Source: a virus
Length of the DNA stretch: 24,442 nt
Strand: one strand, 5' to 3'
Virus record (IMG/VR): IMGVR_UViG_3300030109_000549
Span: 1 to 24,442 of that record
This document shows positions 1-23,336 of the stretch, piece by piece; positions within the stretch are counted from its first letter, which is position 1, and each line of letters begins with the position of its first letter. Below the pieces are notes generated by a model. That model had not been told where the DNA came from and made no database searches. It saw only the letters and a program-made list of their open reading frames with translations. A program made the position numbers and the translations under genes.

Positions 1-80
1 AAAAAACCAATAACTAATGGCGGTCAGCTACTGGTATTTCTCGTGTTGTAATAGAAAGACTCTCCTATGACATCATTACC

Positions 81-109
81 TTATCACATAAATTTAAACC
101 TGCTATACT
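81..109 (+). promoter_or_regulatory. Probable sigma70-type promoter (extended -10) for the late operon
   Basis: A -35-like TTATCA (81-86) is followed after 17 bases by TATACT (104-109), preceded by TG one base away, which makes an extended -10 element. Transcription would start near 116, just ahead of the first gene at 154. The leader (1-153) holds no convincing gene: a short open stretch ending at 51 and a 14-codon reverse stretch both lack a start. Confidence 0.5.
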
Positions 110-124
110 TTATTATCAAAAGTG
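110..124 (+). promoter_or_regulatory. 15-base leader motif, copy 1 (candidate phage promoter or processing site)
   Basis: TTATTATCAAAAGTG lies 29 bases before the first gene. It matches 14 of 15 bases with a copy at 4088-4102 ahead of the capsid gene. I noticed no other near-copy of its TCAAAAGTG core in the window. T7-like viruses often place a phage-polymerase promoter before the capsid gene, so this may be one. The copy here overlaps the expected start region of the sigma70-type promoter, so it could instead be a 5' leader element. Confidence 0.4.
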
Positions 125-4087: not shown

Positions 4088-4124
4088 TTAATATCAAAAG
4101 TGCCTGATGCGTCAGATACCACTT
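4088..4124 (+). promoter_or_regulatory. 15-base motif copy 2 plus hairpin in the capsid-gene leader
   Basis: TTAATATCAAAAGTG (4088-4102) repeats the motif at 110-124 with one mismatch. Its last bases begin an imperfect hairpin: AAGTG (4098-4102) pairs with CACTT (4120-4124), and CTGA (4104-4107) pairs with TCAG (4112-4115) around TGCG. The 120-base leader before the capsid gene also holds the Shine-Dalgarno AAGGAG (4175-4180), eight bases before the ATG at 4189. A phage promoter, or a processed stable 5' end that boosts capsid expression, is the likely role. Confidence 0.45.
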
Positions 4125-21368: not shown

Positions 21369-21592
21369 TATTTGGTTTTTTAAAAAAGTTACTTAAATAC
21401 TACATAGACAAACTGATCCACTGGATGCGGATGCAAAAGTTTAATTTAGAACTTGATAATGACATAAAAAAGTATCACGAAGAATTAGATAAAAAAATAA
21501 AAAAACCTGAGATAAAAGAAGTTGGTAAGTTTGGAGAAGATGGTTGGTCTATTTCTATTGGTAACGTAGATGACGAAGATACAAAAAATTGA
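21365..21592 (+). CDS. 75-residue basic amphipathic protein
   Basis: The N-terminus (MIFGFLKKLLKYYIDKLIHW then MRMQKFN) is an amphipathic, aromatic and basic helix suited to lying on a membrane surface. A charged helix (DIKKYHEELDKKIKKPEIKE) and an acidic tail follow. It is coupled to the membrane protein upstream by an ATGA overlap and overlaps the next gene by 23 bases, so the three are one translational unit. No family recognised. A peripheral partner of the neighbouring membrane proteins is a reasonable inference. Confidence 0.78.
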   Translation: MIFGFLKKLLKYYIDKLIHWMRMQKFNLELDNDIKKYHEELDKKIKKPEIKEVGKFGEDGWSISIGNVDDEDTKN

Positions 21593-22196
21593 AATAAAAG
21601 AAGTTTACGTTCCAAAAATAAGACTCTGGGAAGTACAAACACCGACATTAGATTTAATTTATAAACCAGTTGTAGATATTCCAGCTTGTGTTGATGCCCA
21701 TAGAAATAATTTAACAGGATTAATTAATGAAGATGAATTGGGTACATATCAAGCCTGTGGTACGTTTAATATTCCAAGCTTTGAGCCACTAGAGTATAAC
21801 CCTGCAAACTTTCAATACACCGCACCAGCAAAACAACAAGAGCAACAACAAGAACAACCTCCACAGCAACAGGCAAAGATTCCAGAAAAGAAAAAAGAAG
21901 AAGAACTTGTAATACCACCTTGTCCTAGTGATAAAGAACAAAAAATTGGCGATTTTCGTAACGATCAAAAATTATTGCGTGTTTCTGGTTATTCTCGTGG
22001 TAAAAATGGGATAGAATGTATCACTCTTTATGAAGACGTACCGTTCATCGATCAATATATTCCGTCTTTTAAACAGTTTACTGGGGTTTTTAGTCTTGCT
22101 CTGGTCGGCTGTTCTGCTCCGATCATTCTTAATTTAGTAAAACCAGTTGTTAAAAACTTGATAAAGAAACTGACAAAGAAGAAAGATAAGGTATAA
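21570..22196 (+). CDS. Pro/Gln-linker protein with C-terminal membrane anchor
   Basis: This 208-residue protein has three parts. Residues 1-82 contain PVVDIPACVDAHRNN and GTYQACGTFNIPSFEPLEY, with Cys40 and Cys63. Residues 83-116 are a Gln/Pro/Lys/Glu-rich linker. Residues 117-208 hold Cys118 and Cys150, the YEDVPFIDQYIPSF motif, a membrane helix at about 169-190 and a lysine-rich end. I recall this order (Cys pair, proline linker, PFIDQYIPS, membrane segment, basic tail) from proteins of marine picocyanobacteria and their T4-like phages, function unknown. No N-terminal signal is visible, so orientation is uncertain. A promoter for the following RNA is embedded in its last codons. Confidence 0.83.
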   Translation: MTKIQKIEIKEVYVPKIRLWEVQTPTLDLIYKPVVDIPACVDAHRNNLTGLINEDELGTYQACGTFNIPSFEPLEYNPANFQYTAPAKQQEQQQEQPPQQQAKIPEKKKEEELVIPPCPSDKEQKIGDFRNDQKLLRVSGYSRGKNGIECITLYEDVPFIDQYIPSFKQFTGVFSLALVGCSAPIILNLVKPVVKNLIKKLTKKKDKV

Positions 22197-22197
22197 T
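22170..22197 (+). promoter_or_regulatory. Strong sigma70-type promoter for the structured RNA
   Basis: CTGACA (22170-22175, five of six to consensus) and TATAAT (22192-22197, six of six) are separated by 16 bases. Initiation about seven bases downstream would fall at 22203-22207, exactly where the first stem of the folded RNA begins. It overlaps the last codons of the 208-residue protein gene. Confidence 0.65.
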
Positions 22198-22206
22198 AAA
22201 AATATT

Positions 22207-22305
22207 AGATCGGAGTTGTTATGCCTAGAGAAATACTAGGTCAGCCAACCTCTCTCTGATGCGGACTAAGCAGCTTAGGCAACTGCGAAGGAACCCTTCC
22301 GATCT
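22207..22305 (+). ncRNA. Candidate structured small RNA (about 100 nt, ends paired)
   Basis: The convergent gap between forward and reverse genes is far more structured than its neighbours. AGATCGGA (22207-22214) pairs perfectly with TCCGATCT (22298-22305), closing the element. Inside are hairpins CCTAG/CTAGG (22224-22228 with 22236-22240), CTAAG/CTTAG (22266-22270 with 22274-22278) and GAAGG/CCTTC (22287-22291 with 22295-22299; its last bases compete with the closing stem). An alternative pairing joins GCCTAG (22223-22228) to TTAGGC (22275-22280) and AGTT (22214-22217) to AACT (22281-22284). No coding frame or T-tract terminator is present. I do not recognise a family; it is not a tRNA. The strand is inferred from the promoter. 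Confidence 0.6.
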
Positions 22306-22308
22306 AGC

Positions 22309-22914
22309 CTACTCTAATTTATGAGTGTGCGGTAATACCTGATTCATCTTTTCAGCAACAATTACATCCTTACATAGATCATGGTAAGGGCTATCTGTAG
22401 CAAATGATATTCCCTTAATCTTTAACTCTCCACAATTTTTAAGCCTTGCCAATTCATAATTTAATCTTTCCTTAGATAGTATTTGATGCTGTATTTTTTC
22501 TTGGGTCGTTGCAGATTTTAAACACGCATTTTGAAATCTTTGATCTAGTGGAAAAGTAAAGGTTAATGCAGCACCAAAATTAAGTCCAAGACTATCTTTA
22601 TTGCCACTATAGTTTTCTTGATAGTAAAGAATATCACCTGGGTTTATAAGATTACCGTCATCATCAACACTCGGATCGTACACCGGTGTCATATATGTGT
22701 AATCCTGTGGACGTTTTTGGTTAAAACTACTGGTAAGAAAGGGAGAAAATGAGACTTGTGGCCCTTGACATCTAATACCATTACCGTAATGATTTTCTAT
22801 AGTATTTCCTTGTAAAACTTGGGTAGCAAAATTAGAGACTGAACCACTAGCAGAAGCAGAGGGAGCAGCAGTGTTTGAGGTGTTAGCTAGTACAGGATTT
22901 CCTAATAAACTTAT
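22309..22914 (-). CDS. Probable exported protein with eroded (ATA) start, last gene of the reverse cassette
   Basis: I give the frame from an ATA codon at 22914, yielding 201 residues. The upstream 56 codons, up to an ATG at 23082, read as an arginine-rich shadow of the preceding gene and are rejected. The product has SLLGNPVLANTSN, a weak export leader, then APSASASGSVSNFATQVLQG, GNGIRCQGPQVSFSPFL, a tyrosine-rich middle, GLNFGAALTFTFPLDQRF, and a helical Cys-containing end (NACLKS, LKNCGEL, DLCKDV). I recall this architecture from cyanophage and picocyanobacterial secreted proteins. The 'LNFGAALTFTFPLD' segment is reminiscent of an outer-membrane strand. ATAA here replaces the ATGA overlap expected for this operon. 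Confidence 0.6.
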   Translation of the reverse strand: MSLLGNPVLANTSNTAAPSASASGSVSNFATQVLQGNTIENHYGNGIRCQGPQVSFSPFLTSSFNQKRPQDYTYMTPVYDPSVDDDGNLINPGDILYYQENYSGNKDSLGLNFGAALTFTFPLDQRFQNACLKSATTQEKIQHQILSKERLNYELARLKNCGELKIKGISFATDSPYHDLCKDVIVAEKMNQVLPHTHKLE

Positions 22915-23336
22915 TGCGAGAAGATAGTTGTGGTATCTGTTACGCTTTCTGACTGGATCGTGCGAGTTACGTCTGTAACTGACTCTAGACCAGGTGGTGT
23001 ATAAACTTCTGTAAATTGAAAAGCATCCCCTTGTACTGTTTGCGTCCAGTTTGGTTTTTCTCCTAAATCTAAACCTGTCCATGTATATGTCGTACCGTTT
23101 ATAGTTTCAGTGACAGTTGCATTTGGAGCAGAGATAGTCGATCCATCATGTTCAACACCTGATCCTGTAACTGAATATGTGTACCCAGAATTATAGTTTG
23201 ATGTTCGTATAGTCTCTGTAATATTTGTTGTGGTTTCAGTTCTTGAAGTGGAACTACCTTGAGTGAAGTTAGGAACCACAGGCACAGCGTAGACAGGGCT
23301 AGATATAAGAAAAACAAACGGAAGTGTCCTCCACAT
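22911..23336 (-). CDS. Secreted beta-rich protein, paralogue of its upstream neighbour
   Basis: The 141-residue product has a signal peptide (MWRTLPFVFLISSPVYA, cleavage after 17). It then has a Thr/Ser/Asn-rich chain of short strands including YSVTGSGV (54-61), HDGSTI, and QGDAFQFTEVY (102-112). The next upstream gene has the matching elements in the same order, so the two are likely tandem duplicates. Very low Lys/Cys content and repeated T/S/N strands suggest an extracellular or surface beta-structure such as a fibre or amyloid-like protein; that is inference. Its ATG overlaps the previous stop by one base (TGATG). Confidence 0.8.
   Translation of the reverse strand: MWRTLPFVFLISSPVYAVPVVPNFTQGSSTSRTETTTNITETIRTSNYNSGYTYSVTGSGVEHDGSTISAPNATVTETINGTTYTWTGLDLGEKPNWTQTVQGDAFQFTEVYTPPGLESVTDVTRTIQSESVTDTTTIFSQ

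Follow-up and report, generated by a model that had tools for sequence, protein, structure and literature searches.

The window, the whole stretch of DNA that we analysed, is a linear virus record of 24,442 bases (IMGVR_UViG_3300030109_000549). Its gene content encodes a T7-like podovirus, with portal, scaffold, capsid, tail tubes and internal virion proteins. The nearest isolate is the Prochlorococcus phage P-SCSP2, whose portal protein is 77% identical. P-SCSP2 is an MPP-C cyanopodovirus, and phages of this group have no DNA polymerase gene (PMC9860041). The last gene of the late operon (21570-22196, plus strand) encodes a 208-aa protein of PHROG 570. The gene facing it (22309-23082, minus strand) encodes a 257-aa protein of PHROG 848. 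Both PHROGs are of unknown function. The PHROG 848 protein has 428 relatives, all from cyanophages or unclassified marine virus records. Because of these relatives and of the nearest isolate, the host is probably a marine picocyanobacterium.

The two genes converge on a gap at 22197-22308, as the preliminary description of this DNA had reported. A promoter-like site (22170-22197, plus strand) overlaps the 3' end of the 208-aa gene. It consists of a -35 box CTGACA (22170-22175), a 16-bp spacer and a -10 box TATAAT (22192-22197). Earlier called a strong promoter, it matches at 11 of 12 positions and is the best site of the region. Eight nucleotides separate the -10 box from the first base of a 101-nt RNA element, E1 (22206-22306, plus strand). 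The interval 22170-22305, previously presented as one feature, is therefore corrected to a promoter (22170-22197) and an RNA at about 22206-22306. No terminator-like site was detected between 21900 and 22700 on either strand, nor after E1 in the window. The signature of such a site, a short hairpin rich in GC with a T tract immediately after it, was sought here on both strands and is absent, which sets aside an intrinsic or bidirectional terminator, the trivial identity raised beforehand. A coding peptide was also discarded. The 12-codon ATG frame MPREILGQPTSL loses its start in one homolog (L164) and is shortened in two others (L166 and L171).

To find relatives of E1, we searched 2.9 million viral contigs (IMG/VR) with three independent DNA patterns, and their results agreed on one set. 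E1 is rare, with 11 homologous contigs beside the window. They support a covariance model (R2) with three parts. The closing helix P1 joins 22206-22214 with 22298-22306 (TAGATCGGA/TCCGATCTA). The pairing of the two ends was anticipated over eight bases, and it extends over nine. It is paired in 98.7% of cells and nearly invariant, with one G-U variant (L174). The P2 arm (22215-22249) combines GUUG 22215-22218/CAAC 22246-22249 with an inner hairpin, GCCUAG 22223-22228/CUAGGU 22236-22241. Its 10 pairs are all invariant across the homologs. An equally invariant joining strand, CUCUCUCUGAUGC (22250-22262), carries a CUCUG core and leads into the P3 hairpin (22263-22295). P3 is built from GG/CC, CU/AG and GCAG 22270-22273/CUGC 22283-22286, and it is capped by the loop CUUAGGCAA (22274-22282).

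The evidence for an RNA fold comes from P3. Its inner stem varies among the homologs as GCAG/CUGC, ACAG/CUGU and GCAC/GUGC, and its outer pairs as CU/AG, UU/AA and CC/GG, around the loop CUUAGGCAA. Four pairs show double changes, a count that none of 500 shuffles reached. The compensating changes that homologs were expected to reveal are thus present in P3. Because E1 is rare and P1 and P2 do not vary, this covariation amounts to four pairs with few independent events. The fold differs in part from the one first proposed. All three hairpins described before exist in the sequence and CCTAG/CTAGG is kept in every homolog, but CTAAG/CTTAG and GAAGG/CCTTC are broken in many of them with no compensatory change. 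The covarying hairpin GCAG-CUUAGGCAA-CUGC takes their place in the 3' region.

A further pairing, between GCCUAG 22223-22228 and UUAGGC in the P3 loop (22275-22280), was also pointed out at the outset. It is present, and all 10 distinct homologs retain it. This possible alternative is compatible with P3 and excludes the inner hairpin of P2. It is almost invariant, with one change from U-A to U-G, and thus gives covariation nearly nothing to act on. The idea of a switching RNA found no support, since both competing pairings are invariant and there is no downstream gene in the same transcript. The folding energy of E1 does not stand out (z = -1.33), and 19 of 200 shuffled sequences reach an equally stable fold. 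In the window, the covariation-based fold has -26.7 kcal/mol, the minimum is -29.5 kcal/mol, and the fold first described, with its third hairpin left out, has -19.2 kcal/mol. The case for an RNA rests on the relatives.

The gap of these relatives contains much more than E1. We collected 160 loci by means of the two neighbouring proteins, together with the loci from the DNA patterns, and obtained 134 distinct versions of the gap. They show 43 architectures, in which structured modules stand alone or in tandem. At least seven non-trivial structured classes (E1 to E7) occur, with rarer E12 and E18 and simple hairpins (E9 to E11). The class counts were made with core motifs because an automated parser of closing stems merged modules. 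Nearly all the modules lie on one strand, and the sole match on the opposite strand is one simple E10 hairpin. E1 adjoins E3 or E7 modules through short linkers such as TTATTA. In some relatives the site is empty and the two flanking genes abut. These varying arrays and empty sites mean that the module RNA is accessory. On sequence comparison, E1 appears as one interchangeable module of a fast-changing small-RNA cassette that is shuffled among marine cyanophages. This array, and its second location described below, had escaped the preliminary description. In one relative (L069), we also observed three tandem E5 modules (AAGCAY...CCTG...CAGG...RTGCTT) whose stems differ. E5 is a candidate pseudoknot class.

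The promoter placement is a property of the arrays as a whole. Of 106 arrays, 85 have a TANAAT box with its end 6-8 nt ahead of the first module, compared with 1.2% of 16-nt windows in the upstream coding sequence. One further box (86 in all) lies 11 nt from its module and is outside this count. The distance is the usual spacing from a -10 box to the transcription start. Clean empty sites have no -10 box. The box of E1 sits at the end of a coding region. Elsewhere, the same box is found both where the codons are for Val or Leu and within leader sequences that do not code.

The same modules recur at a second hotspot, which separates the exonuclease gene from the portal operon. In the window, this hotspot (1-124, minus strand) has a promoter-like region, only a short hairpin module and a strong intrinsic terminator. 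The terminator (1-40; 35-6 in the scan, minus strand) ends a minus-strand unit in this interval. Two relatives (L166 and L167) carry E1 itself there. In L167, E1 is on the plus strand, the genes for portal, exonuclease and helicase all occupy the minus strand, and the array follows no ORF. As E1 opposes all its flanking genes, it is a free-standing RNA gene, neither a leader nor a tail or UTR of their mRNAs. Many arrays of this hotspot finish, by eye, with a hairpin and then a T run. The terminator scan detected none in L167 at this place. A separate observation concerns GATAAGGT, which stands directly before the modules in both hotspots of many loci. It lies in coding sequence at one hotspot and outside it at the other, and a role in recombination or as a promoter motif is conceivable.

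E1 shows the own promoter and the conserved structure of a phage-encoded trans-acting sRNA, in its promoter placement, its covariation and its free-standing position. As far as Rfam 15 and the searched literature show, we are highly confident that E1 is a real RNA gene of a previously unclassified family. The earlier reading of a compact and unrecognised RNA with a promoter of its own is supported to this extent, without the three-hairpin fold and the switching.

Two sister classes share features with E1. The E3 core pattern matched in 92 contigs. Its alignment of 28 sequences has 47 compensatory cells, and the covariation score is 0.314 against 0.179 in shuffled alignments. In E4, double changes occur at 10 of 14 pairs. 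Both classes keep their internal loops fixed despite the changes in the stems. At the level of comparative analysis, these patterns prove RNA-level selection in E3 and E4. A strand containing CUCUG follows the P2 helix in E1, E3 and E4 alike. The array strand has 101 copies of CTCTG and the opposite strand 5, where shuffling gives a mean of 19. E3, as the commonest class, dominates this count. We infer that E1, E3 and E4 may form one superfamily. In several loci (L067, L174, L184, L207 and others), E3 takes a longer form of about 145 nt with a long insert. There, a larger shared structured domain (GGTATGTTAGG...CCTAACGGACT) replaces the short P2 hairpin.

A cultured phage carries an element of this kind. 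The homologous gap of P-SCSP2 (OM416780, 31009-31160) contains an E3-like element that carries a long insert (AGGAACCAGACC...CGTCAGTTCCT). Its assignment to E3 rests on motif and position, because the long insert left the covariance model with no score. The closing architecture of E3 (six free bases, a CA bulge, GAC/GUC and the matching six bases) has a single occurrence among five phage records searched on both strands, and this lies exactly in the P-SCSP2 gap. By blastn, E1 and the other modules were not found in isolate phages, and covariance models gave no convincing match in P-SSP7, P-RSP2 and P-SCSP1u. In bacterial genomes, E1 has no match and E3 has one (L311:1718-1760), in the single-cell genome AG-426-I04, labelled Alphaproteobacteria. 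This contig belongs to the phage type of the window, with a homolog of the 257-aa protein that is 65% identical. The match reflects either contamination, an adsorbed virus or a wider host range.

We compared E1 with known families and systems. A covariance-model scan of the window against Rfam 15 gave no match above the curated thresholds, which no self-cleaving ribozyme family reaches. Relaxed filters added only chance-level hits (E 6.8). Likewise, 20 related loci with classes E2 to E7 and E9 to E12 had no match, and ARAGORN detected no tRNA or tmRNA gene in the window. A riboswitch or cis-regulatory leader was rejected, since the next gene is convergent at the first hotspot and the flanking genes all face the opposite way at the second. 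We found no description of such RNA arrays in the literature searched, outside subscription journals and preprints. The noncoding RNAs reported in cyanophages are the CfrI antisense RNA, PhotoRC-II, wcaG and the glutamine riboswitch (PMC9602691). These are antisense or cis-regulatory, whereas the modules described here match no Rfam family. Phage tRNA arrays, together with the extra stable RNAs in the tRNA clusters of T4-like phages, are alike in being tandem, small, closed, structured, accessory and variable. However, our modules are 55-145 nt long, have unrelated cores and lack tRNA features. ToxI RNAs and their phage mimics likewise form compact structures in tandem, and their shape neutralises a host protein. 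Type III antitoxins of this kind repeat one short pseudoknot unit beside the gene of a toxin endoribonuclease. The present modules are longer, of different classes and mostly non-identical as repeats, and they have no partner toxin gene. A ToxI-like type III antitoxin was rejected because modules of different classes stand in tandem and the neighbours are PHROG 570 and 848, not a toxin.

E1 may be a phage sRNA, about 100 nt long and a single module in a variable cassette, that binds and diverts or inhibits a host factor. A host-type RNA polymerase, or a phage polymerase with a similar site, would begin transcription with the first base of the closing helix. The RNA would then adopt a P1-closed fold resembling a three-way junction, with the conserved P2 arm and the P3 hairpin with its invariant loop. 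Modules in tandem would be co-transcribed and possibly processed. During infection, one conserved host factor, which might be a ribonuclease, RNA polymerase, a part of the ribosome or a defence protein, would be bound, diverted or inhibited. The benefit to the phage would be host takeover or counter-defence. Because the helices compensate while the junctions and loops (the CUCUG core and the UUAGGCAA loop) are fixed, the working part would be a three-dimensional surface and not an antisense sequence. Free stems and fixed loops point to a partner that reads shape and loop sequence. Together with the accessory arrays and with the turnover at two hotspots, similar to accessory host-interaction cassettes, they lead us to favour a host-factor-binding sRNA. 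We hold the full explanation tentatively, at a little under an even chance. An extended version is doubtful. It proposes that the interchangeable structured RNAs of abundant marine cyanophages form a superfamily in which the CUCUG core is shared and the shells differ, shuffled between two slots like anti-defence genes, as an RNA-only arsenal against a single conserved host machine. Phage tRNAs are reported to be able to evade bacterial defences (PMC11555353), a precedent for RNA counter-defence.

Other explanations are conceivable for the same arrays. The position of the first hotspot between convergent operons might suggest a 3'-end device, that is, a structured tail, or a barrier in both directions, against convergent readthrough or against exonucleases. 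The tandem nuclease-resistant RNAs of flavivirus 3'UTRs (xrRNAs) would be a parallel, as duplicated compact folds at the end of a transcript. Closed, compact and tandem modules, and the simple E9 hairpins in the same gap of many relatives, would agree with such a device. It is nevertheless unlikely. The array at the second hotspot opposes all its flanking genes and follows no ORF, so that E1, unlike the xrRNAs, is free-standing there with its own promoter and no upstream mRNA. Moreover, E1 lacks a terminator signature, true empty sites are tolerated, and promoter boxes precede the arrays. A DNA element, such as a recombination, packaging or replication site, could account for cassette-like shuffling between two hotspots and for the short AT linkers. 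The strict strand bias, the compensatory changes that preserve the junctions (G-U variants included) and a promoter box at the spacing of a transcription start make it extremely unlikely.

The remaining alternatives accept an RNA and give it another role. An own promoter, small size and invariant single-stranded segments would suit an antisense sRNA that pairs with host or phage mRNAs through the exposed loop or the CUCUG strand. However, the conserved strand of 16 nt has no second complement with up to 3 mismatches in the 24-kb phage record, and complements of the loop are no commoner there than chance. Invariance across many phages is also easier to explain by a single constant partner than by targets that change, and we judge this role distinctly unlikely. 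Self-cleaving ribozymes processing a tandem transcript, or ligand-binding aptamers or riboswitches, typically combine free stem variation with fixed internal loops, as in E3 and E4, and the two mutually exclusive pairings in E1 would agree with them. Against this, no Rfam family matches at gathering scores, the self-cleaving ones included, and the activity would be needed separately in several unrelated cores. There is also nothing to switch, with no downstream gene in the same transcript and both competing pairings invariant. This makes ribozymes and aptamers very unlikely.

Cyanophages shape the ocean's most abundant photosynthetic cells, and their known host-takeover genes nearly all encode proteins. 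Shuffled small RNAs with constant binding surfaces would, if true, represent an RNA-based handling of the host. As P-SCSP2, which grows on Prochlorococcus MED4, carries an E3-like module, the idea of an RNA gene is testable in culture. Besides, the several new RNA families with covariation can be used for structure work and for annotating the dark intergenic space of viral metagenomes.

Apart from the arrays, the window has, upstream of the capsid gene, a hairpin AAGTG-CCTGATGCGTCAGATAC-CACTT (4098-4124). The matching place in P-SCSP2 holds AAGTGCCTACTGAGGTAGATAACACTT, with compensating changes. It is a separate conserved structured element. Finally, TATCAAAAGTG occurs at 114-124 and 4092-4102 on the plus strand, upstream of the portal operon and of the capsid gene, respectively. 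The motif is a candidate for the late promoter of the phage.
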